From positions 2,976,001-3,040,000 of the forward strand of contig NW_026570223.1 in NCBI RefSeq assembly GCF_019649055.1: a stretch of 64,000 bases of DNA, in the 5' to 3' direction. Made by a program: the position numbers and the translations under genes. Origin of the DNA: Paramacrobiotus metropolitanus (taxonomy: Eukaryota; Tardigrada; Eutardigrada; Parachela; Macrobiotidae). Below are positions 19,842 to 49,195 of this stretch, one piece after another; positions within the stretch are counted from its first letter, which is position 1; each line of letters begins with the position of its first letter. The notes beneath the pieces were generated by a model that saw nothing but the letters and a program-made list of their open reading frames with translations, was not told where the DNA came from and did not search any database.

Positions 19842-19858
19842 ATCCCCACATAAGGGAT
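19842..19858 (+). promoter_or_regulatory. Leader hairpin with CACATAA loop
   Basis: Stem ATCCC/GGGAT closes the heptaloop CACATAA (19,847-19,853), 70 bp before the gag start. The same loop on different stems recurs at 42.8, 42.9, 45.2 and 45.4 kb. Confidence 0.7.
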
Positions 19859-19927
19859 TGTTCAAATTACTGTACAACAGTACAAGTCTCTCGTTGGTTC
19901 CACTTGAACCGACCTGACCCGACAACA

Positions 19928-22900
19928 ATGTCGAACCCGAAGGAAAACGAATACGCCCGAAAGTTCAACACGGACTATTCGCGGCGCCTGACCTCCAACG
20001 CGCCGTATGCACTACGGCACTCCGGTCAGGATAGAAGTCAGCCATCGTCAACAGACTCGACGAAGTCGGCGGAGGCAAGGGAGAAGCGCAACGAGCGGAT
20101 CCTCCTCGCCGATTCCAACCCAACGTCGGACGACAGCTTCGAGGACGCTCACGACAAGACGTTCCTTGAGCCCAGAGCTGACTTAGCAGCCCCGTCCCAC
20201 CCGACCGGGGGGGAACTGGAGAAGCTGCAGGCTGAGATCACATTGTCTCATGCCGAGGCGGAACACCCACATGGGGCACCGACCTCTACGGACCCAACAG
20301 AAGGACTTCAACTGAGCTCACAGAAAGCTCAGGAGCCGGTAACGACTACGAAGGTCACCGACTCTGGACGGCAATCACCCAACCAGACGGATGAAGCGAA
20401 AAGGTCGACCTCGCCCAACTCGGGTAGAGCGACTTCACCGACCTCGAAGGTCGGAGTGAAACAACCGATAACGGAAATCGGTCAAGTCCAACCGACCACA
20501 GAAGTCGGTAGGGCTTCACCAACCTCTAAGGACGGTCAACGGAAACCGACCCCAGAGGTCGGTTATTCTCAACTGGAGGTCGGACCTCGCCCGACAACAC
20601 AAGTCGGAATTGAGGTCGGACGACCACAGCAATCATCAAACAAGGAAGTTGGCAAAGTCCAACCGACAACAGAAGTCGGGAGGATTTCGCCGACCAAGAA
20701 GGATGGAAGTCCACCGACCAACCAGGTCGGACCTCGTTCGACAACACAAGTCGGAACTGAGGTCGGGCAACTTCCACCGACCTCAAAGGTCGGACAACAG
20801 CAAGTCGGTCAAGTACAACCGACCTCCCTGGAAAAGAAGCCAGTCGATACAAGGTCGGAAATGGACATCCAGTGGCCTAAACTACCGGCCAAAACGGGAG
20901 AAACTGAGGCCCCGCCACGAAGCGGACCCCACCCGGCTGGATCACCAACCAACATACCGATGCCTAACGAAAAGGCTATTTCACCGCTAAGTCGACCTTC
21001 GCCAACGGAAGGAAGGTCGACCCGAGCAACAGAAACTCAACCGGAGGTGAAGTCGCCAACAAGTCGACCTGTCGACCTAAAGAAGAGGTCGCCACTTATG
21101 TTCGAACTTGGCGACTCGGGTAGTGGAACTCCACCACCCACGGACGACGTATTCGACACGACACAAGTGTCACGTCCCAGCAGTAGGGATGGATTTTTCC
21201 GAACGCCAGTGGCACCCCACTTGGGTAACCACAGGTACCAAGCAAGCACGCTTGAGTACACGGCACGGAAGTGGATTGCATCCACACCTCCAGAAAAGAT
21301 CGAAGACATCGATCGACTCCGGAAACGATGCCAGGATTTGATAACACAAATCGTCCTGGCCGACCAAATCGTTAACTCCACGGAAAATCAGATGTCGCGA
21401 TCGGAGGACACCCATAAGCTCGAACGGAAGCGATGGGAGAAGGAACTAGCCGAGGCCAACAATGGCATAGCTGCGCAACAGCGCCGCATTGAACACTTGG
21501 AGAGTCACCTCAAGAGGTCCGACAATCCATGTCGGTACGACTTCGAAGAGATCGAACGACTCCGAATTACACTTGCAACGTCAGTGGAATCGGTCTTCGA
21601 ACTGAAGAGACGCCTTGCCACCGTGGAAAAAGACCTGGCTGACACACAAACAGCCTTGGTCGAATCGGAACTGGCAGCAGGGACGTTCCACCAACAGTTG
21701 AAGCAGGCCAATGAAGAGGCCGAAGTGTACCGGAACGAGGTCGACAGATACATTGTCGAACTCAAGCAGGCCGACGACGAGGTCGACCGGCAGAAATATC
21801 GAATCGAACAACTCGAAAGGGAGATGGAAACTCTCCTGGTCAGGGCAGGACGACAGCTAATGGCTCACTACGGCCAGCAACCTGCCTCACCCGACCGAAG
21901 CAGAGCCATCACCGACCTGGAACAAGCGAACGCCCAATTGGCCGACCAGGTCCACGGACTAAATGATGTGCTGAAGGAAGAACAAAGACTCCGAGCACAG
22001 CTGGAACACAGCCTGGCAGAAGCCCAGAAGGTGTACGAAGCGCAACAGAACCGCATCGCACACTTGGAAGTCCGCGAAAACGACCTGTACAACTACGGGC
22101 TGGACGCGGATAAATATATCGATGACTTAAATCGATATATCGACGAAATGACCACGTATACCGATGACTTGGATACGGAGGTACGCTGTCTCCAGGAGGA
22201 AACGAAACACCTGGAACAATCCAGGACGGAGCCTCCATCCTACAGGACTTCGATGGCAACGGATTTCCACTTTGAACCGTCGCAAACAGTTCGAGATATC
22301 CTGTGGGACATCAAACCCAAAGAGGAGAAGAAGGAACAGAACTTCTTCGTGGGTGTGGTAACAACTAACCCGCTCATCGGAACTCCTCCGCAGCAACAGC
22401 CTCTGCCCCACCGTCCAGAACCGGAACGGAATACGTCGACTGCGGCACCACATGTGCCAACGTCAAACGTGCCGACAACGACGACGGCCACGTCAGGTAC
22501 CTACACTAGTACCACGTACGCAACACACACATCGATGCATGCGCCAGCGCCCACCACGTCCCACCCGAATGGACCAGCGCCTAATCAATGGGGCGCAGGA
22601 CGGCGACTGGGAGAGCGAACAAGCTCACATCCCAACATGGATGACTTCGGCCGCTTGACGATAAGCGACTCCGACTATCGGCGTGAACGAGCTAGGTCAT
22701 ACAATAACGACCTACCTCCAGGAGGACGAAGCGGACAACAGAATCCGGAACGCCCCCCCGCCGACTACCCACAAGACTCACAGAACGTGCCTCGGTTCCG
22801 ACCAACAGAAGGTCGGGCACCACCGAGAAGGCCGTTCAGAGGTCAGCAGGGAAGGGTGAACGACCTTCCACCTGGATTCTATCAACAGCCACAACGGCCC

Positions 22901-24646: not shown

Positions 24647-24677
24647 GGTCGATGAGCCCCGGTGACTCATTCGACCT
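24634..24677 (+). promoter_or_regulatory. Programmed -1 ribosomal frameshift signal (Gag to Pro)
   Basis: In the gag frame the codons read G GGA AAC GCC TAA, so GGGAAAC (24,634-24,640) is a correctly phased X XXY YYZ slippery heptamer one codon before the gag stop. The protease frame is -1 relative to gag and open across this point. Five bases downstream a stem of 11 pairs with one bulged base forms (24,646-24,656 with 24,666-24,677, 9-base loop). Heptamer, spacer and stem together are the classic layout; GGGAAAC is used by known retroviruses. Confidence 0.88.
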
Positions 24678-25911
24678 GCGACATCCCACCGAACCACCGG
24701 ACAAGGATAACCCTACTAACCAACTTCATTTTAACCGGAGAGAATCGCCCATACCCACAACAGAAGGGGAAGTCATCCAACGGATGGATGCCTTGGTCAG
24801 ACAACTAGGTCTGGACCATAACAGCACGGAAGAAGAATTCGTCAACGCTTTGATGGCTTCAACAGATGAAGCCACAACGGCCAGAACAATGGCAGAACGA
24901 CTCGGAATTCTTGTCAACAATGGCAAAATTGAAATCCGGACCGGAACACAACGAATGCCCGACTTAACCGACACAGCGCATCAACTTGGCGTTGGAACGT
25001 CGGAGGCCGGAACGCAGGGATTGCCCGGAACGGCCGACCCAATACCTCAACTTGGCATTGGTAGGTCGGAGGTCGGAACGCAAGAAATGCCCGACCTACG
25101 TAGCACAAACAACGTGACTACGCCGCCCGCCACAGAAAGCGACGCAGGACGGACCGGCCACGGAAGTTGGACCGGACTGCCGGTGAGAAGAAACTCAACC
25201 GAGCAGCCCAGACAAGGGCCGAGACGCGGAGGACCGGGACGCCGATTCACGCAAAGGGGCAACAGAAACTTCCCCAACGTATCATCCGGACGCGCAACGG
25301 ATAGATACGCTGCAACAATGGCAGCCATCGACCTCACCGAAGAATCGGACGGAGAAGTCGAAATATGGGAAACATTCCCTCTGGAAGCACAGGCACCCGC
25401 TCACTGGCTGCAGCAGGAGTCGGGCCTCTCCCAGCAACAACCTCAACCGGCTAGAACAGTAGCCGGACCTCGGACGTTCGTCAACCTCGACTACATATGG
25501 TCGCAAGTGAGGCCAACGGAAACCTCGATAGAAGAACGGATACGAGAACAAACACGACGGTTCGAAACTCCCACCGACGTGCTGGAGGACGGAGTAGCTA
25601 ACCGACCTCAGGCACATGAAGTGGTCGTAACCGAAGTGGGACCAATCCAAGGCACGCTGACGCCAACAGAAGGCGGATCAGTCTCCTTAATTCCCGTCAC
25701 ACCGACTGTACGGGAAGTGACCTTCGAAAAAGGGACTCACAAGAAACCGAAGACGGTCAGAGCCTGGACACACGCAATCCAGATCGGACCGACGCCCACT
25801 ATGGCGATGCTCGACACAGGAGCAGAGACTTCGCTGATCGAACAACGATTCTGCGAACAAAACGACCTGCCAATGCAACCTCTTGCCATTACACTAGGAT
25901 ACTTGGCGTAG
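24652..25911 (+). CDS. pro: Pro region: spacer and N-terminal half of the aspartic protease
   Basis: Frame -1 to gag; an ATG at 24,652 exists but entry by frameshift at 24,640 is more likely. About 380 residues of polar linker with its own QLG(I/V)GTSE(A/V)GTQ repeats precede the retropepsin motif MLDTGAETSLI (Asp codon 25,813-25,815). The frame ends at TAG 25,909 inside the protease fold; the other half of the domain, with VTLQGF and VLLGCDYL, continues in the -1 frame from 25,908. No slippery site is visible there and the break falls within a folded domain, so it is a mutation or assembly error and not a second programmed shift. Confidence 0.78.
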   Translation: MSPGDSFDLRHPTEPPDKDNPTNQLHFNRRESPIPTTEGEVIQRMDALVRQLGLDHNSTEEEFVNALMASTDEATTARTMAERLGILVNNGKIEIRTGTQRMPDLTDTAHQLGVGTSEAGTQGLPGTADPIPQLGIGRSEVGTQEMPDLRSTNNVTTPPATESDAGRTGHGSWTGLPVRRNSTEQPRQGPRRGGPGRRFTQRGNRNFPNVSSGRATDRYAATMAAIDLTEESDGEVEIWETFPLEAQAPAHWLQQESGLSQQQPQPARTVAGPRTFVNLDYIWSQVRPTETSIEERIREQTRRFETPTDVLEDGVANRPQAHEVVVTEVGPIQGTLTPTEGGSVSLIPVTPTVREVTFEKGTHKKPKTVRAWTHAIQIGPTPTMAMLDTGAETSLIEQRFCEQNDLPMQPLAITLGYLA

Positions 25912-28253
25912 GCGGACAAGTTGCCTTCACCGTAACCCACTGCTGCACCGTACCGGTAACGCTGCAGGGATTTACGAGCCATCATACATTCCACGTTCAA
26001 CCGAACAACGCGGATATCCCAGTGTTACTTGGATGTGATTACCTTCATTCCAAGTTCACCTTCGTGTTAACGCCCATTCCTAATCCGGAACGACCTGGAG
26101 GGATGACGGTAGTGCAGTCTATCCCGATACCAGAGGCATCGGGCACGGTAACAACTGAAGCGAGGATAAGTCGGCTTGATCACCCGTCAAACCCCCCGCC
26201 CAACATTTGCCGTGACTGCCGGGATACCAACCGGACTCTGATCGAGGAGATGCAACTGCACAACGCCATCGAAGCGTACGAAGAAAGGATACGAACTGGA
26301 AAACTACGTCCGAAGAAACGCATACTGAAGACGGCAGTAAAGTCTATCCCGATACCAGAGCCATCCGCAACGGAAGCGGATGCCATCTTAGAAGTCCAAC
26401 AAAAGTACCGGACTTGGTTTACGGGAATACAACACTTTCTCGACCGACGGACGTTGGAGATGATGGCCACCCTCCAACAGAACGGAGCGGTGACCACGGA
26501 CCAGATACAGGAAGCACAACGGACATGCGAACCTGTATTGGCCCTCGCCGAAGACATCGACGATGAAGCTTGGGAATGGGAAGACGAACGAGTCCCAATC
26601 CATCGGCAGTACATGGAATACGGACTTCCAGTACCACGCCCTCTGGAGATACCCTGCCAAGAACTAGGCGGAGCACTCTTCAGTTACATGCGACAAGTAC
26701 AGTTGTACGGAGAATCGACTACAACTGCGTTTTGGAAACGGTACGGCGAGGACACCTCAATAACAAGGACGATCCCCGACCCGTTACCGCCAATCACGGA
26801 ACACTTTCCGAAGGAAGTCAAATTCGTCAACGACCTGAAGAAGCCAACTGAGCACACACAAATTGGCGAAACCGACCGACCTGACCGCTGCATAATTTGC
26901 AACGATAATATTGACGGAGTCGTCCGGACGCTGAAGACCCACCATGACTTGACTTGGATTGACGGCAGACCGTCGTCACCAGCCCCTCCGCAACCAGAAC
27001 GGAAGGTAAACTCAAGCCGGAAGACCAAGTCGGTAGCCAACCAATGGCTGAGCAACATAAGCTCGCAGCCATCCGACCTGGAAAAACAGGACGAAGAGAG
27101 TCGACCGACCCAACCGAAGGAAACGGCCGACCAGGGAGTACCGACCACGGAAGTCGGCGAAGGTAGTGTGCCACCGACCACAGAAGTCGGACACGGCGAC
27201 ACACCTGATGTTAACCCTGAAGATGAGCAAGAATCCGAGGAATACAACTCGGATGGCTCGGACGTACAAAGTTCGAGTGATTCACCGGACACAGACTCCG
27301 ACAACCAACCTTCGGAAGAATCCGAGGAAGAGGATGATGATGAAGAATTCGACCCCTCAGTACGAAACTGCAGGTCAGATAAACCGCGGAATGACGACTC
27401 GGACGACTCATCCGAGGAGGACGAAGAACCGACCTACGACGTCCGGCTGACAAAAGCCTTGCGGTCCGTCATCCATACGGAAATCATAGTCGACCTTCCC
27501 CCGGAACAAACCGGACAGGAAAAGTTAGTCGATGTCGAACAACAAGTGGAACTTGAACAACTTCAAATTTTACGGGAATTTGGAGGAGGCCAACCGGAGG
27601 AACACGACCTCCGACCTCCAACCATAGTAGTCCAGCAGCTGTCAACCGAACAACCGACCTCGGTTAACTTAACCGACCAACAGAAGTCGGAGCAGCCGCG
27701 CCCACAGAAGGTCCGGATTGCAAAAGTTAACTCGATTACGGAGTTGAACTTGGGCAACAAGCACCCACAAGTTCATCATCTAGCACTGGACCCGTTCATC
27801 GACTCGAAGCCGCTAGACCGACAGGTGGTCTTTAATAGCGAGCGAGTCTCTCTTCCACCTTACTCAACGTGTTCTATCAAGGTACGGACAGCCAAACCAA
27901 TGGACCCGATGAGACCCATCTACTTCTACACTTTACGGCGGAAACACCGACCTATCCGACCGATAGAAGCTAAAATTGAGATCCGACCTCAGATAGACAC
28001 GGCCTGGATAAACATCCAGAACATGACCCACCAACCAAGGATATTGAAGAAGGGCATAAAACTTGGCCATATGCAATACAGCGACATGTTCGAACCGGAC
28101 ATCGACAACCAGTACGTCGAATGGGAACTCCCACTTGGAATTGCCAAGACTTGGCCACCCAAGTCGGAACCAAAGCCATCGCCAAAATTCGAAATCTTCG
28201 AGTCAACAGGAGTTAGAGCTCAACGGAAAGTGAAACTCCACCGCGGGCGATAA
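25908..28253 (+). CDS. pol: Pol segment: protease C-terminal half and long acidic linker
   Basis: Opens with the second half of the aspartic protease (VLLGCDYLHSKF). Next come Cys pairs (CRDC near 26,210; CIIC near 26,890, followed by a His), two PTTEVG units at 27,141-27,190, and a strongly acidic Ser/Glu/Asp run (about 27,225-27,430). The last part, near 27,720-28,110, is a beta-rich domain (VSLPPYSTCSIKVRT, LKKGIKLGHM). Similar beta-rich segments precede RT in some large retroelements. A frameshift near 28,230 moves the reading to the next segment; the ATG at 26,022 is not a real start. Confidence 0.65.
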   Translation, partial: VGGQVAFTVTHCCTVPVTLQGFTSHHTFHVQPNNADIPVLLGCDYLHSKFTFVLTPIPNPERPGGMTVVQSIPIPEASGTVTTEARISRLDHPSNPPPNICRDCRDTNRTLIEEMQLHNAIEAYEERIRTGKLRPKKRILKTAVKSIPIPEPSATEADAILEVQQKYRTWFTGIQHFLDRRTLEMMATLQQNGAVTTDQIQEAQRTCEPVLALAEDIDDEAWEWEDERVPIHRQYMEYGLPVPRPLEIPCQELGGALFSYMRQVQLYGESTTTAFWKRYGEDTSITRTIPDPLPPITEHFPKEVKFVNDLKKPTEHTQIGETDRPDRCIICNDNIDGVVRTLKTHHDLTWIDGRPSSPAPPQPERKVNSSRKTKSVANQWLSNISSQPSDLEKQDEESRPTQPKETADQGVPTTEVGEGSVPPTTEVGHGDTPDVNPEDEQESEEYNSDGSDVQSSSDSPDTDSDNQPSEESEEEDDDEEFDPSVRNCRSDKPRNDDSDDSSEEDEEPTYDVRLTKALRSVIHTEIIVDLPPEQTGQEKLVDVEQQVELEQLQILREFGGGQPEEHDLRPPTIVVQQLSTEQPTSVNLTDQQKSEQPRPQKVRIAKVNSITELNLGNKHPQVHHLALDPFIDSKPLDRQVVFNSERVSLPPYSTCSIKVRTAKPMDPMRPIYFYTLRRKHRPIRPIEAKIEIRPQIDTAWINIQNMTHQPRILKKGIKLGHMQYSDMFEPDIDNQYVEWELPLGIAKTWPPKSEPKPSPKFEIFESTGVRAQRKVKLHRGR

Positions 28254-28270: not shown

Positions 28271-29640
28271 ATGGACGTTGCAGTAGCCACCGGACAGAAA
28301 CTCATGTACCTTGGTGGATCCGACCCCCAACGAGACGGAGTCGAAATGATGGATGGCGTAACTAAACATGATGGGAGACGATTTACCATCATGGTAGCCA
28401 ACCACACTCACCGTGAGGTCACCTTACGAAAAGGTGCCCCCATGGGTCGAGTCGAACCGTTCCAAATGATGACGGACGACCAGAGAGTTGAAGAAGCAAG
28501 AATACGGTCAGCCCAGGTAGAGGAAGAAGACGCGGAATCCCAGGAAGAGCGACGAAGAATCATCGACTCCATGAACTTCGGTAAGAACTTAACCGATGAG
28601 CAACTTGCCCAACTTAAGGCAGTCGCCTGGGAATACCGGACCGTCTTCCCGACCTCGAAGAAACCATACGGAGATGTCAAAGGTGTAACACACACCATCG
28701 ACGTCCAAGGTGCACAGCCGATTAAGATGAACCCCACCAGAACAAGCTGGAAAGGAAGGGAATTCATCCAGAAACACGTACAGGAGATGCTCGACCAAGG
28801 AGTCATCGAACCTCATCGGCTGCATGGAGCTTCCCCGTCGTCTTAGCCGCGAAACGGAACGGGGACGGCACGGTTGGAACTCGTTTCTGCATCAACTACA
28901 TAAAGTTGAATGCAGTAACAAAGAAGAACAATTACCCGTTACCGAACCCGGACGAGCTACTGGACCAGTGCGCCGGAATGGAGTACTACGGTAAAGTAGA
29001 CTGTCAGTCCGGCTTTTGGCAAATTCCCATGGACGAAAACTCCAAGGACTACACAACCTTCGTAACACCGGAGGGAATGTGGAGATTCAACCGTATGCCA
29101 TTTGGAGTCTGCAACGGACCAGCGACCTTCCAGATGCATATGGATAAGATAACGGCATCAGCCCGGAAGAAAGGCGTGTTTGCATACATTGACGACATCA
29201 TCTTCTTCGGCAAAACTTTCGAAGATTTTGTCGAGGCTTTCCGAGCGACCCTCGAATGCCTCAGAGATGCCGGATTCACCATTAAGCCCTCCAAATGCGA
29301 GGTCGGAACGGATAAAATGCTGTTCCTCGGACACGTCCTTAGCAAAGACGGAGTCCAAACCGACGATGAAAAAGTAGCAGCCATAGCTCAACATGATTAC
29401 CCAAGGACAGAACGCCAACTGAGGTCGTTCCTGGGATTGGCTAACTACTACCGTAAGTTCATCCGAGGATACGCCCAGAAGACATCGAAGATGTACGAGC
29501 TCCTACGGAAGGACCAAAACATCAAAAAAGGATTGGACGGAGGCCCACACGGCCGAGTTCAACGAAATCAAAAGGCGTTAACAGAAGCGCCCGTACTGGC
29601 GAAGTTCGACCCGGCAAAGAGACCGTCATTGAATGTGACG
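28271..29640 (+). CDS. pol: Reverse transcriptase domain of the giant element (frameshifted)
   Basis: Frame 2 from about 28,230 to 28,830 holds the region before RT and the RT fingers (EMLDQGVIEPH). A one-base shift near 28,825 moves to frame 1 (from 28,906), with FWQIPMDENSKDYTTF, FNRMPFGVCNGPATFQ, the catalytic YIDD (29,185-29,196), FLGHVLSKDGV and RSFLGLANYYRKF. This order and wording are typical Ty3/gypsy RT. The palm residues are intact. Two nearly compensating shifts at about 29,525 (next to an A run) and 29,575, and a third at 29,627, break the connection to RNase H. Confidence 0.85.
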
Positions 29641-30413
29641 CAAGCGGAGCCGGACTTGGCGCGGTGTTATCCCAGGACGGACATCCGATCGCCTACGCCA
29701 GCAGAGTCTTACACGGACCTGAACTCAACTATGGAGTCACAGAATGGGAATGTTTGGCCGTGGTATGGGCAGTGCAAAAATTCAAGCACTACATCGACCA
29801 TGGACCTTTCACCGTACAAACGGATCATCGGGCATTGCAGAACCTGCTTAGATGCGAGTCAAACCGACCTGGCATCAACCCTCGGCTAACACGATGGGCA
29901 CTGGCTTTACAAGGGCGGGACATAACCATCAAGTACAAGCCAGGAGTTTTCTGCGACAATGCGGACGCCTTGTCGAGGTGGCCACTCGAACGGAGTGATG
30001 ACAAAGATCCACACGAAGAGTTGGATCAGGTGCCTAACTTCGAGGACTTTAAGGATGAAATTAAAGTCTGCACCATACGGACCCTACGACGTCTGAAGGA
30101 CAACACAAGGAAAAAGAAGAGGGATGAGAAGGAACCACCGGAAATTCCACTTCCACCACCTCTTCCCGGATGTAACGTCATTTCAGACTGGGATGACCTA
30201 AGTACCACAGAAGTACGGGTCGTCAACGTACCGCTCAGCTCCGAAGACGTCGGACCTCAACATATTGGAACCGACCATCCGGACCGCAAATACGGCGGAA
30301 GAGACGGACGAGTTGAGCCCACGGCGATATACTCATGCACCGCCCGTGTCAACGAACGCGGAATTGCGGAAAGCACAGCTGCGAGACCCGCACCTGAGGA
30401 AAATTATCGATGA
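29627..30413 (+). CDS. pol: RNase H domain of the giant element
   Basis: In frame 0: DASGAGLGAVLSQDG, then YGVTEWECLAVVWAV and FTVQTDHRALQNLL give the Asp-Glu-Asp set of the Ty3/gypsy RNase H, ending with CDNADALSRWP. A Lys/Glu-rich linker follows. A frameshift near 30,270-30,300 passes reading to the integrase frame. The ATG at 29,664 is internal and unlikely to be used. Confidence 0.82.
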
Positions 30414-31607
30414 ACTGGAGAACCTGGATAAACTCGACTACAAGTCGAAGTACACCGAGCACTACCAGATGGCTCAAGGACTCCTGTATCGATTGAAGGT
30501 AATAAACGACAAGCTGGAACGATGCTTCGTCGTACCTCTCTTCATGCGAACCAACATCATACGTTCGCTACATGATGGGAAAACCGGAAACCACTTCGGA
30601 CGCGATAAAACCGTAGAAGCATTGAAGTTGCGCTACTACTGGGAACGGATGTCAACCGACGTGTTCGAATACATTCGGAAATGCCGACAGTGCATTTTGG
30701 CCAACAAGGTCCGACGTCCCCCACCGGGTAAACTCCAAAAGATGGAAGTTGGTGAAGCTTGGTATCGCATCTACGCGGACTTCAAGGGACCTTTACCTCG
30801 AACGCAGACGAAAGGATACCAATACATCGCAGTGGTAACCGACCAGCTGACGAAGTTCACCATCGCCCGGGCAACCAAAACGAACACCGCGAAGGAATTT
30901 GAAAAGTTCTTTGTGGAAGATGTCCTGCTGAAGTACGGAATGCCGACCTTCATCCACTCGGACCGAGGGACGCACTTCACGGCGAAAACATTCGCTAAAG
31001 TTGCGAGGATTTTCGGCATCCAACATACGCTTGGAACAGCCTATCATCCGGAAGGTCAAGGACAAGTCAGACGGCAAATGCAGACGATATGGGACGGAAT
31101 ACGAAAGTTCTGCAATATAAAGGACGGACACCGTTGGCACAGAGCCTTACCATATGTCGTCTGCGGGATGAACAGAGCAGTCCATGCCTCGACCAAATTT
31201 TCACCTTACCATATGCTGTATGGTCGGGAAATGACCATGCCACAGGACTTAGTGGCCGGGACAAACGCACCGGAACAGTATACGGACAAGGAACATTACA
31301 TCAGGCGGATAAAGGAACGACTTCAGATGGCTCACGAAATTGCGCGCATCAACATCGATGAAGCCTTTGAACGGAGCGCCGAAGTTTATAATAAGAAGAA
31401 GTCATCACCGACCTTTAAACCACGAGACAAGGTAACGGTGGAATTCCCAACTAAGGACCCCGCCAGGATGGAACGATACGACGGAGAGTGGACGGTCATC
31501 AGTTACGTTGGCCCAAACAACCTGCTACTCCGAAGTGAGGACGGACGTGAAGACACCGTAGCCGTCGACCAGTGAAACACTTCCAGCCGACGCACGTCGA
31601 CCAGTAA
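30265..31607 (+). CDS. pol: Integrase of the giant element, catalytic Glu lost
   Basis: The zinc-binding H-x-H...C-x2-C N-domain (HDGKTGNHFGRDK, then CRQCILAN) is followed by the core: Asp in YADFKGPLP (30,778-30,780), Asp in HSDRGTHFTAK (30,961-30,963), then AYHPEGQGQV. Exactly 35 residues lie between the second Asp and the position where the DDE family has Glu; that codon (31,069-31,071) is AGA, Arg. The C-terminal region ends at TGA 31,573, but one base shift gives a natural ending at TAA 31,605-31,607. No chromodomain seen. As written this enzyme should not catalyse strand transfer. Confidence 0.85.
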
Positions 31608-32280: not shown

Positions 32281-34211
32281 GCGTAACTTAGAATAAGTTA
32301 TAGTCATAGGTAGCTTAACAGTAGCTAGGTATAGGCCGACCTTTGGTGTCGAAATGGAACCCTCAGTAACATCAGAATCGGGAGTTGGGAATTTAACCGA
32401 CCTCTCCTTAACAGCAGACAATGTCGGGCCGACAACGCAACGACCCACCTTCTAGCGGATCCAACAGCGGACGCAGCAAAACCATACCGTCTCACCAGCT
32501 GACCCGCGATCGGATAAGCCAAGAACACAGTCGCAGGTACATAACCCGCATGCTAACGATACAGCTAATGTCTTAGCAGGTTTAACGGTCGGGCCAGAAC
32601 GAAGCCCACAATATCGACCAGTACCACCGCAGCATCTGCCACCGAACACCGGATTTACGACTGGCGGACTTCTCGTCAACTATGGCGCGAATGGGAACCA
32701 ATCTGCCACGGTAACTGCGGGCGACCCACTCGGTCAAGCGCAACCTTACCGTTGGACGGTACCAACAACAATGGTTGGTCCGACCTTCCCAGGGCCGACG
32801 TTAGTGCCGGGAATGGTGAACGTACCACCGCCGATTTTCACAACGCCTACTTTGGCGTCGAGCCAGCCGACATGGGCTGGACCTGTAACTCGATACGTGC
32901 CAGTGTCGGGAGGAATGGGAACGATAACTCCGACGTCACCAACGCGATTCGGAACGTTCAGCGCGATAGGGACAAACAATACCCTATCATCTCCCCGACT
33001 TGGAACATTCAGTATCGCGGGAGTGGTTCCACCTCTACCAATGACGGGACCAGTCTCACCAACTCGTATTGGACTCCCGGGACAACCGATTCCGTGGGGG
33101 GATCCACATCTGGCACAGTACTTGATTCAGTCGCTTAACCAGCACTTGAATCAGTACGGAGGACAGGCCCCACATGGGACTGTACTGGCAACGACCACAC
33201 AAGTCGTACCGCCGCGACCTCCTCCGCCACCACCGACTGAACTTCCCATACCGACCTCTACGCAAAGTAGGGCGATACCAACGGGAGAGTTACGGAAACT
33301 CGACCAAATTGCTCGTGACCAGGCGCGTGACTTGACGCACCAGCTGTCTTGACAAGCTGTCGACACCGACAACTCCTGGTTACCTGGACAGAAGGGTGGA
33401 AATCCTGGATCGAATTTCCGGACTCCAGACCTTCATTAACGACAACACGAATATAATTGCGATTCGGAACCAACGAGCGGCCCAACCGACGTCCGCCTCC
33501 ACAGCTCAACCGTCATCGACAACGACCACGCAAGTCGTTACGTCGATGCCTCCACCACAGGAACCGACCTCGTCTACCACACAGCCTGGTAGTCGGACAT
33601 CCTTCGCGGAGGCCATGGAACGCAGAAAGCGGCGGGATGCTGAGCTGAAACGATCGAAGTTGGACGAACTCCGACAACAACGAGAAGACGCGTGGAACGA
33701 AACGGTTGAACTCAGACAGACGCTACATAAGCTGTCTACTGAACAACCTGACAACCATGCCGCATGGAAAGAGGTCATGGACCAACTAGTGGTTGGGACC
33801 ATTATATGAGGGACATGGATGAACAAATCGAGAAAGAGGAACACCGCCCCGGAACTCGCCATTGTCCCCCCGACTCAGCAGATACAACCGGTTCAGCCGA
33901 GTCCGACCTCGCCAGCTACGGTGCCCAATATGCCGAACGTGCAACCTCAACCAGCACCGAACCCACCGGCCCAACAGGAGGCGGTAGTAGATCCGATTAT
34001 ACAGGAACTACAGTACCTCCAGCGGGTATCAGACATAATGATGACCCGCATGGAGGCGGTCGGACAAGATCGGAGACTCGAACTGCACGAGTCAACCCGA
34101 CTGGGAAGGGACTCCCAAGATATTAAGAAAACCAATGCCCAGATCCAACACGCGATCAAGAACGGCATCCCCAAGGAACAACTGCCCTTAGCGACCTTCC
34201 ACCAAAGATAG
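32281..34211 (+). CDS. N-terminal part of the large 3' ORF (Pro/Thr-rich, frameshifted)
   Basis: Possible starts are the ATGs at 32,354 and 32,421. The reading then passes through open frames 32,771-33,352 (PTLVPGMVNVPPP-type Pro-rich sequence), 33,396-33,809 and 33,819-34,211, always on the plus strand. Pro/Thr-rich spacers and short helices alternate (for example RRKRRDAELKRSKLDEL and LQRVSDIMMTRMEAVG). I read it as one long polyprotein broken by single-base shifts near 32,580, 33,350, 33,780 and 34,208. No known domain recognised. Confidence 0.5.
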
Positions 34212-38871: not shown

Positions 38872-41044
38872 CTCGGCTAAGTTGTCACGGAGGGAAAAGA
38901 AGAAGGCTAAGAAGGAAGCCAGAAAGGAAGCTGAAAAGGAGGTGACCAAACAACCTCCGAAGGAACCGACTAAACCGAGGTCGGACCTTTCAATTAAGAC
39001 GCCGAAACCTAACCCGGCCAAACGGCATAAGTCCTCCGACGACCTTGATACCTCAGACGCTGGCCCACAGAAGCCGGATCAAAAGGGGAACGCCAAGGAG
39101 GAATTTGACTACGACGCAGCCAAACAGCGGATGCGAGAACTGATCGCCAGAGCAGGTACTGCGGCGACCAAAACGGAGGCCGAAAGACCACACGAAAGGT
39201 CTAAGCCGACGCCTAAGCCACCACCCAAGCAACCGAAACCTTCTACGTCCAAGAAGACTCGGACGATGAATCAGAGAAACCCTCGGAACCCGACGATGAG
39301 ATCTCCGACCATGGAGAAGCCGATCCATACGAAGGATTTAAAGGCGATCGAAATGAAGAATGGAGTCACGAAGAAGACACCGACGCTTCTGAATGGCCAG
39401 CCCCTGATGACGTACGTCAGCGGCTACCCGACGCTCAACCTGGTGACCGACCAGTCGGATTTCATACGGTTCGACTTCACGTCGAAATAGTCCGAAGCGT
39501 TAGGAACGCCCGAAACGAAGGCAGAGATGTGTACCAGTCATTGGTGCGCGACCTCTCGACCAACTTAAGGATCGTAGGTCGGACCTCACCCTGGCTCACA
39601 CAGAAACTTATGATGGCTATAGTGGCATGGGCCTTGGACTTCGGATTAGCCGTAGCGGTCCACCGACAATGGGGACGGACCGCCGAGCTAATCGCACCGG
39701 ACATCATTCAAAAGCTCAAAAGTGCCGCTGCCAGAGCACTGGACGACCCGCCGACGAGAATCGTCAGATGCATCGGATACGCAAGAAACCCCGCGGATCC
39801 TCCTTACTACATATCGCCCGTATATACAACGTTATGTACGAGAACAGCCAGGGCAATATTGACGTCATAATGGACCTCCTAAGACCTGTCATCGCAACGA
39901 TGGTGGCAGAGTTTTCCCTCCAAACGACCAACGCGGAACGCGATTTACCACTTCGGTACACAGTACCTCGGTTCATACCGGAGCAGCAACGACGCGATTT
40001 CAAACTCCGGATGTCCTTTACCAACCTACAGTCCTCTCCCGAAGGTACCGAAATGATCGTCGAGGAGTACAGTGAGTCGGAGGAACAACCATCCGGCGAG
40101 GCGGCGGACATGTTGAACATTGCACGGGCGTCAGGTATGTCGTCACAGAAACGACTACCAACCAACCGACCTCGGGCACCGTTCGAACCGGTAACATATG
40201 TCAACACCGCCTCGGCACCAGCAAGGGCAAGTGCAACTAAGCCAGGTCGGACTACAACTGGACGTTTTGCGGTGAAAGACACGCAATCTCTTCCACCGAC
40301 CTCACCTATGGAAACTTCACCGGCTCCGGAAGGTAAGACTCTACGGAAGAGTCAACCTAAACCGCTGAAATCAACGAAGAAGTCGGTGAAGACCAAGGAG
40401 AAAACGCCCTCTGAGGAAGAAGACGAAGATGAAGAAGAAGAAGATGAGGACGATGACGACACCTATCAAACACCAGAAGGGTCGGAGGATGACGATAATG
40501 ATGACGACGACCAACCTCCACCAGCTTCGGCACCACAACAGCAGGGTGAACCGGAGATTTCTGACAATCAGAACGAACCACCGGCCAACAACGGCAACGA
40601 AGCTGACGAGCCGATGGAGGAAGATAGTGGTGACGTCTACGTTCCCCAGAATTACCGTCAACAAGTACGGTTAACACCAGATTCCGACCCGAATCAACTC
40701 CTCCAGGAATGGAATGAGGATACCCAGGAAGTCCTACCGTTACAGATTCCTAGCCTACCGAAGGTAAACGTCAAACACCCGACGGTGGCCATTAAACGTG
40801 CTCATACTCTACCTCCACGCGTCTCGGAATACGATCCGGGATGGATGTACACCTTTGCGGCCTTGAAGGCCCTGGCGACCTGTGGACCGAAGTTTGCGAC
40901 ACCGAAGATCGCATTCCAGCTCCTCAGGCACCATAAGATCGGTGACATCGGCGGAGGTTGGAGGCAACTAAGCCAGAGCAACGTATACCGGTACTGTAAC
41001 CTTGGGTACAACGAAAGTAAAATCATACGGACATACACCAGCAG
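38855..41044 (+). CDS. Large 3' ORF, C-terminal part before the nested insertion
   Basis: Continues after a shift near 38,860 with a Lys-rich stretch (SRREKKKAKKEARKEAEKE). After shifts near 39,245 and 39,790 it passes an acidic segment, a hydrophobic helical domain (TQKLMMAIVAWALDFGLAVAV, about 39,600-39,660), then PT-rich and very acidic Glu/Asp runs (about 40,410-40,520). A compact region follows (VSEYDPGWMYTFAALKALATCG, near 40,830-40,895). The frame is cut at 41,045 by a transposon and resumes in phase at 42,335. No family recognised. Confidence 0.5.
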
Positions 41045-42788: not shown

Positions 42789-42832
42789 GGAGACGTGGAA
42801 TACGTCGGAGGAGTCGCAGAATCGACCTCCTT

Positions 42833-42925
42833 CATGAGTACCACATAAGTACTTATGATTACCGACCTCCTCTTGGACACAACAGAATGTCCCGACCTAC
42901 CTCATTAGGCACCACATAAGTGCCT
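42833..42925 (+). promoter_or_regulatory. Two CACATAA-loop hairpins between ORFs
   Basis: 42,833-42,857 has a 9-pair stem CATGAGTAC/GTACTTATG (one G-U) and 42,907-42,925 a 6-pair stem AGGCAC/GTGCCT, both closing the loop CACATAA. They lie in the 240-bp gap between the large 3' ORF and the Cys4 ORF, so protein coding does not explain them. Confidence 0.75.
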
Positions 42926-43012: not shown

Positions 43013-43030
43013 CTAACTTTTCTTTTGACA
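43013..43030 (+). promoter_or_regulatory. Strong 3' splice-site sequence before the last ORF
   Basis: A pyrimidine run followed by TTTTGACAG directly precedes the open frame that starts at 43,031. This would let a spliced subgenomic RNA place a 5' exon in front of an ORF that has no early ATG. The donor is not identified. An AGAAA-loop hairpin (ATCCG/CGGAT, 42,995-43,009) lies just upstream. Confidence 0.5.
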
Positions 43031-45173
43031 GCCGCGAACGGAGGCATACACGGCGGACTGCCGACATTGCATAGAGAATTCCACTCCGCAGGGCAACAGA
43101 CTCCCGTGTGCGGACTGCATCATTTCCTTCTCGGACGAACATACTCCACAAACCGGACGTCGTGACGCGATGCAAGCAGCGGCGTTGTACATAAACGTCG
43201 TCGCTGGGAACATTAGCGCATACCGACGTTTAGCCCGCAGCGAACGTCTAATTAACCAGTTACGGGCCTACGAACAGGATCACTTGTCGGAAATCCAACG
43301 CAACCGCGCTTCCGACCCCGGATGGACTAACACAGTACCACCGACCTTGACGCATCGGCTTCTGGAATACCGCCAGCAACAGGACCTGCGGCGCCAGGAG
43401 GAGGACCGTGCGAAACTTAAGGCAGTCAACGAAAGAATTGCCACCATGAAGGTCCATCCACCACCAACGAAGCACGAACCACAAATCACTGTTCACCTAC
43501 AGCAGCCCACACAAGGCCGCTCAGAGTCGGAACAGGTGCTTCATGACGTGAGAGAAGTGATAGTCGGAGACATTCACCGACCTCTTCAGTCCGCATCAAT
43601 CCAAATGATGATGCGACAGGACGACGGAACCATGAAAATGGTCACTCTTTACCCTGCAACGGCGGAGCAGATGGCAACGATCCCACAAAAGGTCGTTCCA
43701 GTGGTCACACAAACCCAGCCATCTATTCCCCAGGAGATTTCTCAACCTGGATCCTCGGCACAACCAGTTGCCGCGTCGTCGACTCAACAGCGCCGACCGG
43801 CCAAACCATTGGCCGGACACGACCTTCGACATAGGCTCGGACACGACGCTCGACACAGAATCGAGGAACGACGAGCCTCTGCCGGACACGGCAATAGCGA
43901 AGCAACCCGACCTTCACCTGGTAAACGGTCAAGTCCGGAGAAGACGAGCATGGGACTGGTCGTCGACTCAACTAGTAAGTCGAAACGGAACTTCGTCCCA
44001 CCTGAACACCAACCAGGACCGGAAGCCCACATGGCGGAACCGGCAGACAAACCCGAAGAAATGGATGTGGATGTGGCAAATCAGATGGCCTCGATGCCAA
44101 CAGTGCAAGTTCCCAGCCAGGACGACCCTCGCTACGATAACGCCCGACGACAGGGAGTCGAAGTCGTCATGCCACATCCGACCGAACGGACGAACTACAT
44201 TATGAATACCCTGGGATACGAGGAACGACACCGACCACACATTTGGCGAATGGTAGAAAACCTGCGTCAGTTCCTCATCCGATCCGGATTCCAGACCAGA
44301 TTCCAATTGAATAACTGGATGGGCGAGTTCAACATGAACGACCACCCCAACGTGGAACACCCGATCAATCGAGCAAACGCTTTGCCTTCGGTGCATGATC
44401 CGGCACTGTTGGACGTACCTTTGTCCACACCGGAGAGGACGAGTCTAAGTCAGCTCGGACCTCAGGAGTACTCACGCGATCAACTGGAAAGCGTGGCTCA
44501 ATTCGTCATCACCGACGCCCACCCGGCCTTCATCATCGCAGCGGCTCGAGCGGCCCTCGACTTACTGCAGTACTTGCCGGAGGAAGAACCGGGACCAGAA
44601 GATCGAAATGCAACCATTTTGCGGTACGTCTTCGCAGCAAGGCTAGGCAACTACTTTTGCCACTACACGCTGTGGGGAGCACGTCGCACGGCACATATCC
44701 CACCAGAACTGGATACGATCGTCGTACAACTTGGTTCACCCATGCGAAGTATCATCTTGGCAGTTTGGTTACGCGACCTCCTCTACATACAGGAACGGCA
44801 CGCGGCCAGATACGCCTTCCGCAAGGACTTCAAAGACCCAGACGACGATGCGGCCGAATTCGTGAAGTGGTACCGTGAAGAAAAAGCGTTACCTAGTGGA
44901 TTCACCTCTAGACCATATGGAGAAGGGATGTCGGACGACTTGGCACCCGGCGCAGTACCTAACGCGCATAAGCTCCGTAGGAAGGTCCAGAAAGCCAAGA
45001 AGGCGCGGGCGGAACAACCTGGCCAGGAAGACACCCCACAACAAGATGGGCAACCACCAGCGACATGTAAGCCTGACGTCTTCCGGCGCCTTGGTCGACC
45101 ACCACCTAAATCTGACGAAGATGAGGAAGATTACTTCGGCGGAGACCCGCCGATCTCAGTCCCCCTGGGATAA
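43031..45173 (+). CDS. Cys4 / helical protein, last ORF of the giant element
   Basis: The frame is open from the splice acceptor at 43,030 to TAA 45,171-45,173, about 714 codons; the first ATG is at 43,170. The N-terminal part has C-x2-C-x12-C-x2-C (CRHCIENSTPQGNRLPCADC, 43,063-43,122), a likely zinc site that is lost if the ATG at 43,170 is used. A polar Gln/Pro-rich middle follows, then a well-formed helical domain from about 44,200 to 44,870 (WRMVENLRQFLIRSGF, VFAARLGNYFCHYTLWG) and a Lys-rich, acidic tail. No membrane segment. It is intact, like gag and unlike pol. Not recognised. Confidence 0.6.
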
Positions 45174-45399
45174 CAGGTTCCCACATAAGGAACCTGTGGT
45201 CCCACTTCAACAGTAAGGAAGGGACATCGAGCTGAGAAACAGCGAAGTCGAGAACCGACCTGGCGGAGAACCTGCCCGGCTGAGAAACAGCCACGTCGAG
45301 AAACGACATGGAAAACATGAAACGGATACTTTTCTCTTATGGACCCTAAAGCAGACGTGAACCACGAATAAGCCAGAAGCGCCAACCACATAAGTTGGC
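45173..45399 (+). promoter_or_regulatory. CACATAA-loop and AGAAA-loop hairpins at the start of the 3' UTR
   Basis: 45,173-45,197 has a perfect 9-pair stem ACAGGTTCC/GGAACCTGT with loop CACATAA and touches the stop codon of the last ORF. 45,381-45,399 has GCCAAC/GTTGGC with the same loop. Between them lie four short hairpins with loop AGAAA or AGAAC on stems GCTG, GTCG, GGCTG and GTCG (45,231-45,307). Confidence 0.75.
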
Positions 45400-45833: not shown

Positions 45834-46634
45834 TTGACCACAGAAGTCAAAACCGACCTGTTATGACACGACGCTTTGGATTAACCGAAGGCAGGAACGA
45901 AGAACCGGACTCCCGCCCAGAGACCTAACTTCGCAAACCGCGACCTTAACCGTGCCCCGTTACCTCAGTCAACCACAGAAGTTGACCATTCCCGAGGTAA
46001 CTAAAGGAAGTGACGCAGACCGTGTCACAGAACCACGATCCACTACCTTCGTTGACCACGGAAGTCAGCCAATTTTGAGGTAGAACTTGGACCTCCCCCA
46101 ATCACGATTCGGATAACTTAGCCGACCACAGAAGTCGGTGAAGTTTCAACTTTACATCCGAAGGATAAGTCATACAGAAGGATATATCCAATACAGACCG
46201 TGTTGGTTAGCCACGATCTACTACCTGAGTTGACCACGGAAGACAACCATTCCAGAGGTAGATGATCGGAATCAAGACACTCCGGCAACCGGACTCCGGA
46301 GTACAAACCAGCGAGGATTCCGCTAGCATGGCCCGGAACACAGCACTGCGGTGTGTTCAGGACCATGCTTGCCAAGGCACCCACGGTTAACTCCGAGAAA
46401 CGGACGGCCGATAGGATAACAAGTCCCTAAATAACACGGAATCAATTGGACTGCAACGGAACGGACAGTGTCAACTACGACCCGCTACCTAGAATCGACC
46501 ACAGAAGTCGATTTGTCAACGGTAGCCGACCTCAGAAGTCACCATTCGACCAACCGACGTCGACCTGACGGAAGCATATGGAAATTACAAACGGGATGGC
46601 TTTATCGCAGTCTTCACTGACCACAGAAGTCGGT
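45834..46634 (+). repeat. Series of CACAGAA/CACGGAA hairpins, four with a second outer stem
   Basis: Simple hairpins: TTGAC/GTCAA (45,834-45,850), CCGAC/GTCGG (46,122-46,138) and ACTGAC/GTCGGT (46,616-46,634). Compound units pair an outer TACC/GGTA stem around an inner hairpin: 45,959-46,001 (outer GTTACCTC/GAGGTAAC, inner GTCAAC/GTTGAC), 46,043-46,083 (outer CTACCT/AGGTAG, inner GTTGAC/GTCAGC), 46,221-46,261 (outer CTACCT/AGGTAG, inner with one mismatch) and 46,484-46,526 (outer GCTACC/GGTAGC, inner AATCGAC/GTCGATT). Inner loops are CACAGAA or CACGGAA throughout. Confidence 0.8.
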
Positions 46635-47447
46635 AAAGGTGACCGCAAACCGCGACACCTGACTACGATTTTAGTCTGGACGGATTCTCCGTTTGAACCC
46701 GGATCTACAGGCCTCAACCAGGAACCTGTACCTGGAGTCCAACCGCAGTCTCCCCCGGCGGATATCGGATAAACCAACCGATTCACCGGTGACCACGACT
46801 ACGCGCGGCTTGACCGTGCTGCCATTACCTGAAGAGGAACAGCGACGGTGATTTGGCTACTGACGTACCAACGACTCCGCCGCGACCTGCTTCCCCATGT
46901 CTTAATGGAACACCTTAGGCAAACCGTGTTAGGACACACGGCTTGCACCCCCATACAGATCCCTACGGACGTGTGATGTCTTTCCCCAACAGAAGTGGCA
47001 AGGCGTCACAGGTTCGCGGAACCGAACGAAGGAACTCCAAACTAGGGAAGCGAAGTGATCTGATTTTACCTCAGTTTGCATGTTGTAAGGGGATGGGAAC
47101 GGGCAGTCTGACATAAGTCGGGGCCCGACGCACAACTCTGCTGGGGCGCGAGAACCTTACGCCGGTTTGAAACCAAAGAGTCTGTCTTGTGGAGTGGGAT
47201 CACAGAAGTCCCTTGACGCCACAAGCGACCTGGATTGCATGCTGAATGGCCAACAGACGCCATGGGACTGCCGAACTTGACGGAACTCGGACCCGTCCAG
47301 AGGCAAAACCATCGACCCGAACCAGGGCATGTTAGAGGCACGAAAGAGACCATCGCTCCAAACAAAACCTCGCAGAGATCGGATGAGTGCCCAGAGGCTC
47401 GAAACCGACCTCTTGACGGACGGAACCGACCTGGATGAGGAATCACC

Positions 47448-48221
47448 GACCTCAAGTTGGATAACATTACGTCCAACCTCAGGTCGGATAAAGTGGAATA
47501 ACCGACAACAGGTCGGTTATAAGGATGATTCCACCGAAATGGACTTGTACGGCTCCACATTGAGCCTGCATACCGCTTCGGGTGAACACGGAATTACGGA
47601 ATCACCGACCTCAGGTCGGATAACGTTGTAACCGACCTCGGGTCGGACATGAGAAGTAACCGACAACGGGTCGGTGGATGGAAACGCCATCGTAGGGATT
47701 CACGGAAAACGACTTCCGGACGTAAGAATTCGACCTCAATCGACCTGGGATTTGGAGTAACCGACCTCCAGTCGGATACATTATTACCGACCTCAGGTCG
47801 GAGAAACAGTCCAACCGACCACAGAAGTCGGTTAGGAACACCGGATCGTTCGGATTCGCTTGGAACACCAGCGGATCAGCCGAGATACGACCTTCGAACG
47901 GACCCGTTACATGGTAACCGACCTCACGTCGTATAACATTACCACCGACCACGGGTTGGATAACATCATACCCGACCTCCAGTCGGACATCAAGAGCCAC
48001 AGATAACAGGTCGGTGAAGGATCACCAAACTGAAGATTGGAACTAGAAACGACCTCGAAATGGACGAATCCGACCTAACGGGACTTGTTTGGCCCCACAT
48101 GGGCCTAAATCACACGAGTTACCGAGGTCGACCATGGAGGTGCGTTATCACCGACCTCAGGTCGGATAACATTGCGACCGACCTCAGGTCGAATATCCAT
48201 CCCAACCGACAACAGGTCGGA
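47448..48221 (+). repeat. Array of short palindromes ACCGACC(TCA)GGTCGG
   Basis: At least a dozen interrupted palindromes of the form CCGACCTCAGGTCGG or CCGACAACAGGTCGG lie in under 800 bp, often followed by ATAACATT. They have variants that mostly keep pairing, plus one CACAGAA hairpin with a 7-pair stem AACCGAC/GTCGGTT at 47,813-47,833. The spacing is irregular, so it is not a simple satellite. Confidence 0.8.
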
Positions 48222-49195
48222 TGACAACAGCGAATCATCAGCGGATGGACGGAGCAACAAATTCCGACCGGACCTTCGAGCCAGTTCGCCTCGGAAAAGT
48301 CTTAACCAGGCTCGTGGTAGCAGATTTAACGGTTTTAAACCGACCACATTCCATCGGCATTACCACTTGGCGACCACAGAAGTCGCATGACACAAGTACG
48401 GTTTTGTCCGACCTGACTTTCTGGAATTCGGGACTTAGCCGAAATCCCTTGCCGCCGGTTAACTTGCCGGTAGGCCGACCTTGGTCCGACGACCTTGGTC
48501 CATTCTCCCTAATCAGAGAGGATGCTTCGGCATTCGCAACAGCGACAGTGCCTCTCACTCCGGAACGGATGAACACGAGTCGGATGTAAGTGTCAGCCGT
48601 GCTTACCCGACCTCGTACGGATTTGCCGGTTACGTTGGGTAACCCGGGAACCGACGCCCCGGACCTGATACGCCGGATTGCATTTAGACAGGAGACCACC
48701 CCGTGGAAACCCAAGACCCGTGGACGTCATCCTAGTCGGAATAAGCCCCCGGACAGATCTTTTTTTTAGTATTTTTGTACATTTTCTAACAAACGGAATT
48801 GTATTTTACTTAGAATCTCTAACCAGATCTGTTTTGCATTTACTTTTTGCTCACTGGAATTGTGATTAAACTTTATTACATTTTTATTTCGCGCTGTTAA
48901 CCGTCATTACATTTCTCTTTTACTTTCTCCGCGAGCCAACAGAAGCAAGATGCCAGGCCAACAGAAGCAATACCGGTCCAACAACGAACCCCGAGCGGCT
49001 TCCAGATTTGCGGCCGTGAGTTGCTTGCCTCTCATGGATCTGGAGGTGAAGGATGGGACGGGCAACAGACACCGGACTCCCATTGGAAGAGGACGCGTAC
49101 CGGCGACCCCACATGGGTCGACCGGAGAGGTGCGACACTGGTGCGGTACTGAGTCGGAGCATCCTCGCAGGAGCTCGGATTCCCGCCCAGAGGCA

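Follow-up and report, generated by a model that had tools for sequence, protein, structure and literature searches.

Packaging signals that are dispersed along an RNA and share a loop motif have precedents in single-stranded RNA (ssRNA) viruses, including MS2, satellite tobacco necrosis virus (STNV), the hepatitis B virus (HBV) pregenome and parechovirus, according to the available sections of the reports (PMC6281560, PMC7612645, PMC3593212, PMC5431903). Here we describe a Ty3/gypsy-type long terminal repeat (LTR) element of ~31.5 kb from the tardigrade Paramacrobiotus metropolitanus. It is the one such element in a stretch of 64,000 nucleotides (contig NW_026570223.1, positions 2,976,001 to 3,040,000, forward strand; hereafter the window) and surrounds all of the hairpins listed below. 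The sense RNA of this element carries some 34-45 short hairpins that have a shared pentaloop, ACRNA, and otherwise free stems. The hairpins occur far above chance and on the sense strand only, and the positions checked mostly keep pairing as the stems change. RNA-level selection on the hairpins is well supported.

The dispersed signals of ssRNA viruses are the closest working model. As in those viruses, each genomic RNA has many stem-loops with a common short motif. Unlike those signals, for which the available sections document protein binding, the loops described here are known from sequence, the motif is ACRNA, and the carrier is a ~30-kb LTR retroelement rather than a small capsid virus. 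Alpha- and gammaretroviral RNAs have hairpins with a GACG tetraloop that take part in packaging and perhaps in dimerisation (available text of PMC516450); these hairpins are similar in having a conserved loop in a reverse-transcribing element, but here the loops are ACRNA and are spread across the internal RNA. In mouse mammary tumour virus (MMTV), selective encapsidation by Gag needs the purine loop of the purine loop/primer binding site (PBS) determinant (PMC8096270), a single determinant as far as the available text describes it, compared with dozens of hairpins here. Burro, a giant Ty3/gypsy element of planarians, has an internal part of up to 25 kb and exceeds 30 kb with its LTRs (available text of PMC6431247). 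Both are giant gypsy-type LTR elements of animals; that text mentions no such hairpin system for Burro, and the internal part of the window element is longer, ~30.6 kb (including a probable ~1.3-kb insertion). In the literature, of which coverage was incomplete so that absence is not firm, we found nothing describing such a hairpin system in an LTR retrotransposon. Lambda-type boxB pentaloops and iron-responsive elements likewise have a variable stem topped by a short loop that a protein reads. Their loop sequences are different and they serve phage or cellular regulation, and no homology is claimed.

Hairpins on the sense strand

In the internal part of the element, 34 of 468 NACRNAN sites are closed by five or more Watson-Crick pairs, compared with a mean of 0.39 and a maximum of 3 in 200 dinucleotide shuffles by segment. 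A preliminary description of this DNA had named 11 hairpins with a fixed seven-base loop. All 11 match letter for letter (those at 42,833 and 46,616 each include one G.U pair), and shuffled sequence does not reproduce such a family. Of the loops named then, 12 of the 26 internal CACAGAA sites (binomial P 2e-23) and 5 of the 6 CACATAA sites (P 3e-12) are closed by five or more Watson-Crick pairs, or 17 of 32 for the two alone, against a background of 0.34% for all 7-mers. The reverse complement of the internal part contains no NACRNAN hairpin (shuffled mean 0.09). Outside the element, NACRNAN is closed at 0 of 354 sites and ACRNA, as a pentaloop, at 1 of 354; the control pattern NCARNCN is closed at 0 of 363. 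In the genome searched (169.8 Mb, 533 contigs), GACCACAGAAGTC occurs 299 times and its reversed control 7 times. Each of 12 stretches that were folded thermodynamically gave the hairpin stem, whole or partial (z-scores -0.93 to -4.42). No match to Rfam 15 at gathering score was identified within the window.

With G.U pairs allowed the count is 45, made up of two hairpins in the leader, nine each in open reading frame (ORF) 1 and ORF2, one in pol, ten in accessory frames, two in ORF E and the intron end, one in ORF F and 11 in the 3' noncoding part. None of the 45 lies in a probable nested insertion at 41,001-42,300. Individual hairpins are listed here (coordinates in the window, strand, feature, basis).

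19836..19865, +, leader hairpin, 11 pairs with one bulged base 3', loop C-ACATA-A, ~60 nt 5' of the ORF1 ATG (sequence, sister comparison, folding)
20312..20332, +, ORF1 coding hairpin CTGAGCT-CACAGAA-AGCTCAG (pattern scan, folding)
20464..20482, +, ORF1 coding hairpin ACCGAT-AACGGAA-ATCGGT (pattern scan)
20491..20509, +, ORF1 coding hairpin ACCGAC-CACAGAA-GTCGGT, encoding PTTEVG (pattern scan, translation)
20591..20607, +, coding hairpin CCGAC-AACACAA-GTCGG (pattern scan)
20663..20679, +, coding hairpin CCGAC-AACAGAA-GTCGG (pattern scan)
21155..21171, +, coding hairpin GACAC-GACACAA-GTGTC (pattern scan)
22798..22816, +, coding hairpin CCGACC-AACAGAA-GGTCGG (pattern scan)
24774..24790, +, coding hairpin CATCC-AACGGAT-GGATG (pattern scan)
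24854..24874, +, coding hairpin TGGCTTC-AACAGAT-GAAGCCA, pentaloop ACAGA, A-T closing (pattern scan, folding)
25808..25824, +, coding hairpin TGCTC-GACACAG-GAGCA (pattern scan)
26362..26382, +, coding hairpin CATCCGC-AACGGAA-GCGGATG (pattern scan, folding)
26614..26630, +, coding hairpin TGGAA-TACGGAC-TTCCA (pattern scan)
27141..27190, +, coding hairpin pair CCGAC-CACGGAA-GTCGG and CCGAC-CACAGAA-GTCGG (pattern scan)
28420..28436, +, coding hairpin CACCT-TACGAAA-AGGTG (pattern scan)
33191..33207, +, coding hairpin ACGAC-CACACAA-GTCGT (pattern scan)
33521..33539, +, coding hairpin AACGAC-CACGCAA-GTCGTT (pattern scan, folding)
34735..34753, +, coding hairpin CGAGCT-TACATAA-AGCTCG (pattern scan, folding, copy comparison)
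36260..36276, +, coding hairpin TGGAT-GACAAAG-ATCCA (pattern scan)
36601..36617, +, coding hairpin CTCAT-CACAGAA-ATGAG (pattern scan)
40139..40155, +, coding hairpin GTCGT-CACAGAA-ACGAC (pattern scan)
40337..40353, +, coding hairpin GACTC-TACGGAA-GAGTC (pattern scan, folding)
42833..42857, +, hairpin 5' of the probable splice acceptor of ORF F, one G.U pair (sequence, sister comparison, folding)
42907..42925, +, hairpin AGGCAC-CACATAA-GTGCCT (sequence, sister comparison, folding)
43849..43865, +, ORF F coding hairpin CTCGA-CACAGAA-TCGAG (pattern scan, sister comparison)
45173..45197, +, hairpin immediately 3' of the ORF F stop, stem and loop length family-dependent (sequence, sister comparison)
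45381..45399, +, hairpin GCCAAC-CACATAA-GTTGGC, the best covariation case (sequence, sister alignment)
45834..45850, +, hairpin TTGAC-CACAGAA-GTCAA (sequence, copies)
45968..45986, +, hairpin GTCAAC-CACAGAA-GTTGAC (sequence, copies, folding)
46122..46138, +, hairpin CCGAC-CACAGAA-GTCGG, additional outer G.U pair (pattern scan, copies)
46493..46513, +, hairpin AATCGAC-CACAGAA-GTCGATT (sequence, copies, folding)
46616..46634, +, hairpin ACTGAC-CACAGAA-GTCGGT, one U.G pair (sequence, copies)
47813..47833, +, hairpin AACCGAC-CACAGAA-GTCGGTT (sequence, copies)
48370..48386, +, hairpin GCGAC-CACAGAA-GTCGC (sequence, copies)

Inverted repeats exist in the DNA too, and a palindrome could act there by protein binding or as a cruciform. 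However, the orientation bias is complete (34 to 0), on which ground we reject this, and most copies have a G.U pair at 46,121 (21 of 30) and at 46,616 (22 of 31), which makes sense only in RNA; a DNA-level explanation is scarcely credible. The same two observations bear out the earlier proposal of a selected RNA structure on the sense strand. Hairpins on the RNA strand only would also be consistent with a role in reverse transcription or in dimerisation of the RNA, as sites of pausing, kissing or template switching that need no protein reader, and the hairpin loops used by retroviral dimer linkages provide a precedent (available text of PMC516450). Loop-loop kissing is not obvious because the loop is not self-complementary and the reverse complement of CACATAA occurs just once inside the element, and we consider this explanation very improbable.

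Open frames contain 23 of the 34 hairpins, in all three codon phases (ORF1 phases were counted from 19927, with the ATG at 19928, and are shifted by one; all three phases also occur in other frames). The clustering in the leader, between ORFs and in the 3' untranslated region that was first noted is therefore only part of the distribution. The pol core is nearly hairpin-free, as expected if protein constraint prevails there.

One explanation dispenses with a recognition code. A CCGACC...GGTCGG repeat may have spread by template switching or tandem growth and been partly kept as PTTEVG/PTSKVG in ORF1, the loop being constant since the repeat is constant. CCGACC occurs 116 times in the element and 6 times outside, tandem-like CCGACC-TCA-GGTCGG units are present in the 3' part, the unit is encoded repeatedly in ORF1, and a closing GAC/GTC is common to 12 of the 34 stems. 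The other 22 stems lack that closing, although one of them (22,804) is also of the CCGACC type, and unrelated stems weaken this explanation. It is further opposed by the coding hairpins in all three phases and by the compensatory stem changes of homologous hairpins (below), and we regard it as improbable. The protein repeat PTTEVG as sole cause is ruled out by coding hairpins in phases 0, 1 and 2. Thus, the claim that the stems are different holds for many of them, with the reservation that the 12 with GAC/GTC may be duplicates of a CCGAC-type unit.

Hairpins are in excess more generally, with 83 having 5-nt loops and 105 having 7-nt loops (~28 expected), and to a smaller extent 55 with 6-nt and 58 with 8-nt loops (~27 expected). 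A second class, with the loop [AG]GAA[AC] and stems of four or more pairs, was observed 9 times against 0.98 expected and includes the following array.

45231..45307, +, tandem array of the second class, pentaloop AGAAM, G-C closing; member 45262-45276 covaries (pattern scan, copy alignment)

The stem of this member alternates between GGCGG/CTGCC, GGCAG/CTGCC, GGCTG/CAGCC and GACTG/CAGTC; 97.8% is paired (28 rows, 21 aligned), a value that the extraction pattern favours. At 47400-48230, clustered CCGACC-TCA-GGTCGG and CCGAC-AACAG-GTCGG hairpins form tandem-like units, and loci L018-L021 are richer in them.

Pairing across sister families and copies

Sister families (~70-82% DNA identity) retain hairpins at most of the compared places, with different stems. 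Where the window family has C.A, the sisters have a pentaloop ACAAA or ACACA closed by a true pair (C-G or T-A). These forms appear to be unified by one reading: the pentaloop is ACRNA, flanked by C.A or A.A in one lineage and by a true pair in another. The constant loop of the preliminary description is thereby retained, but its seven fixed bases are better read as this pentaloop closed by a C.A or A.A mismatch.

The leader hairpin of the window family is ATCCC-CACATAA-GGGAT or ATCCC-CACAGAA-GGGAT. Sisters have ATCCTC-ACACA-GAGGAT, ATCTTC-ACACA-GAAGAT, ATCTCT-ACACA-AGAGAT, ATCTCC-ACAAA-GGAGAT or ATCCTC-ACAAA-GGGGAT (one U.G), and in all sister variants an outer stem with one bulged base encloses the hairpin. 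Among 19 sequences (11 distinct), 98.3% of cells are paired, compared with at most 54.5% in slid structures; three pairs have double changes, comprising 9 cells against 3.2 in shuffles (0/500).

At 45,381, GCCAAC-CACATAA-GTTGGC corresponds to GCTGACC-ACAAA-GGTCAGC, GCCGACT-ACACA-AGTCGGC and others in sisters. The hairpin was present in 43 rows; the window and 31 of these were aligned (21 distinct sequences among 32), and L001 and 11 window-identical hairpins were left out. Extraction required the hairpin start and the 3' flank, so loci without the hairpin contribute no rows. The stem is 95.2% paired and the whole structure 88.4%, compared with at most 49.7% in slid structures. Double changes affect two stem pairs and the closing column pair (18 cells against 8.5 shuffled, 0/500), and in the 21 distinct rows the closing columns are T-A in 6, C-G in 4 and unpaired in 11.

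The stem at 45,173 alternates between AGGTTTCC/GGAAACCT, GATCGAGTTCC/GGAACTCGATC and ATCAGGTTCC/GGAACCTGAT; the pair count takes in 12 of 25 rows, those of equal length with a loop of 6 nt. Alignment at 45,173 and 45,381 was poor for L014, L018, L019, L021, L023 and part of L056. In ORF F, the hairpin at 43,849 is CTCGA/TCGAG in 9 of 17 loci and TTCGA/TCGAA in 8 of 17, with the glutamate codon (GAG or GAA) tracking the other arm, in an extraction whose pattern fixes the inner stem; one sister group has TCTTCGA-GACAGAA-TCGAAGA at this place. At 42,833 some sisters have AACACC-ACAAA-GGTGTT and others GACACC-ACATA-GGCGTC, with an A.C mismatch, and the sister hairpins at 42,907 have a mismatch or a bulged A. 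Pair-preserving double changes lie well above the slid-pair controls at the leader and 45,381, exceed them also in the second-class member 45262-45276, and do so more weakly at 45,173. The compensating changes between families that were anticipated from the window are thus found at these places and at coding 43,849.

A per-family control covered ten of the 15 sister loci (L046-L060), each over its initial 5.6 kb. Hairpins with an ACVNA pentaloop number 7 in L046, 5 in L047, 7 in L051, 7 in L053, 6 in L056, 8 in L058 and 7 in L059, with shuffled means of 0.08-0.28 across the ten. Their reverse complements contain no such hairpins with 5-nt loops and 0 or 1 with 7-nt loops.

Sequences were taken from 18 of 41 places in one genome search and 16 of 17 (all but the window's own) in another. 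L039-L045, duplicates of L002-L008, were excluded from counts. L001, the window's own copy, is counted in the 38-locus and 12-hairpin comparisons and was dropped from the pooled test, in which the window itself is a row. Within the window family, across the 38 loci, stems of five or more pairs (G.U allowed) close 214 of 265 CACAGAA sites, 40 of 46 CACATAA sites and 47 of 128 CACGGAA sites. When 12 hairpins in the 3' part are compared with the window, identity ranges over 0.86-0.995 in loops, 0.87-0.98 in stems and 0.87-0.96 in flanks; the 45,173 loop (0.862) falls below its flank, and the 46,229 stem (0.867) equals its flank (0.869) closely.

The pooled test covers 21 hairpins, including six of the CCGACC type with 3- or 5-nt loops, with shifted flanks as the control. 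Double changes retain the pair in 16 of 19 cells (control 222 of 415; Fisher P 0.006), shared one-side changes in 17 of 37 (544 of 1831; P 0.03) and single-copy one-side changes in 27 of 89 (389 of 1578). Variable columns make up 63 of 264 in stems and 870 of 2814 in flanks (P 0.017), and 29 of 127 in loops (P 0.06). The hairpin at 34,735 is the one coding hairpin whose third codon positions were compared (17 sequences): 29 of 285 such cells vary in its flanks and 3 of 102 within it. The pairing signal within the family is modest; many copies drift neutrally after insertion.

Organization of the element

The remaining features of the element are listed below.

18126..18576, +, 5' LTR, TGTTAG...GTCACA (sequence; repeat comparison)
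18577..18590, +, putative PBS TGGTAAGCAG..., immediately 3' of the 5' LTR (sequence)
28726..31572, +, pol: reverse transcriptase (RT), RNase H and integrase, frames overlapping (Pfam PF00078, PF17917, PF17919, PF17921, PF00665)
43013..43031, +, probable 3' splice acceptor at the start of ORF F, CTAAC + pyrimidine tract + GACAG (sequence; retained in most aligned copies)
49196..49646, +, 3' LTR (sequence; repeat comparison)

The paired LTRs, TG...CA termini and short target-site repeat are those of an LTR retrotransposon. LTR segments 18126-18425 and 49196-49495 are 99% identical, the LTR ends are TGTT...CACA, and a GTTT repeat, seen by eye, flanks them on the outside. The Pfam domains of pol follow the Ty3/gypsy order (RT, RNase H, then integrase zinc-binding and core domains). 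Matches to Retrotrans_gag (E 0.031) and protease (E 0.002) are weak and under the curated cut-offs. Translation of the first frame shows a knuckle of the form CX2CX4HX4C as well as a tail rich in RGG; ORF1 has its first ATG at 19928.

The acceptor at 43013-43031 would probably be used to make a subgenomic mRNA for ORF F, whose identity between families is ~60%. Downstream of ORF F (45330-45350), several other copies have a second acceptor-like ..CTTACAG, and the window copy, L002 and L006 have TTATGG. The N-terminal ~140 residues of ORF F (43029-43450) include CX2C...CX2C and have a predicted fold (predicted local distance difference test, pLDDT, ~59-85), the remainder being unfolded in the model; this region is possibly a zinc-binding, perhaps RNA-binding, domain. 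No relatives of ORF F were found among solved structures at E <= 1.

The AT-rich stretch at 41,001-42,300 (~1.3 kb) bears its own inverted repeats. It is probably a nested insertion, because the spacing from 34,620 to 42,700, which is 8,080 in the window, is shorter in two other copies (6,781 on C5 and 6,802 on C126). An internal copy of the LTR start, GGCATGTTAGAGGCACGA at 47326-47343, has the same letters as the junction of the internal part with the 3' LTR (49192-49209). The leader includes a perfect inverted repeat of 22 bp around a 4-nt loop (19512-19559) and a perfect 76-bp tandem duplication (18614-18765). Direct repeats at 7063-9668 and 60011-62729 (79-98% identity, ~52.9 kb apart) flank the element.

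A possible reader of the loop

We infer that a loop-reading RNA-binding protein recognises the ACRNA hairpins, because the loop and the pairing persist while the stem varies freely in sequence, and because the closing pair depends on lineage. Less surely, this reader would be encoded by the element, which explains the lineage difference in the closing pair best; the likeliest candidate is Gag, with its knuckle and RGG-rich tail. Scattered along the ~30-kb unspliced RNA, the hairpins may then act as signals for its packaging or condensation and designate it for assembly into particles. We consider this the best explanation, and our confidence in it is evenly balanced. Packaging and translation control, both raised in the preliminary description, are conjectural roles.

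In the main rival explanation, a host RNA-binding protein binds the hairpins, and the element exploits this for nuclear export of the unspliced RNA, for stability or for splicing control. This explanation retains its place because hairpins directly precede two probable acceptors: those at 42,833 and 42,907 lie 5' of CTAAC-pyrimidine-GACAG, and that at 45,173 lies 5' of the ..CTTACAG of several other copies. Multi-copy export elements are known in retroviruses. However, many hairpins are distant from the acceptors, within gag and the accessory frames, and a lineage-wide difference in the closing pair would be easier with a coevolving, element-encoded reader. We consider a host reader unlikely.

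Several results weigh against a selected code read by an element-encoded protein. The closure counts are optimistic, descriptive and not blind, because the ACRNA pattern was refined on the same data, and the control pattern NANRCAN (7 of 282) itself exceeds background. The possible duplication of stems with GAC/GTC also counts here. The number of pairs changed on both sides is not unusual in shuffles (166/500 at the leader, 416/500 at 45,381), and the pair-count shuffles ignore the relatedness of the sequences. The 45,381 hairpin is missing in sisters L048, L054 and L055. At 45,173 the pair count is weaker (89.4% paired, 4/500, in the 12-sequence subset), and loop length varies from 5 to 8 nt across families. 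The hairpins at 42,833 and 42,907 keep their place and mostly an ACANA loop, with imperfect pairing in many sisters. Three sisters are poor in ACVNA hairpins (L048 3, L054 2, L060 0; L060 has just two hairpins with 7-nt loops). Among the 37 shared one-side changes of the pooled test, 20 disrupt the pair. The structure prediction for ORF F gave no confident fold (mean pLDDT 40.1, predicted template modelling score 0.25).

More generally, and with somewhat greater reserve, we suggest that an RNA recognition code can be distributed along LTR retroelements, with dozens of hairpins of one pentaloop placed in untranslated regions and in all codon phases of open frames. The closure of the loop would shift in concert between lineages (C.A-closed ACAGA/ACATA versus pair-closed ACAAA/ACACA) as the reader, probably Gag, coevolves. 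If true, such a code would solve both the selection and the compaction of a ~30-kb RNA. Retroelement families that share a genome, have many sites on each RNA and differ in the closing pair would provide a comparative test of the packaging-signal idea, by asking which protein region changes with the loop. The finding bears on how RNA is handled by giant LTR elements, beyond the usual size of ~10 kb.

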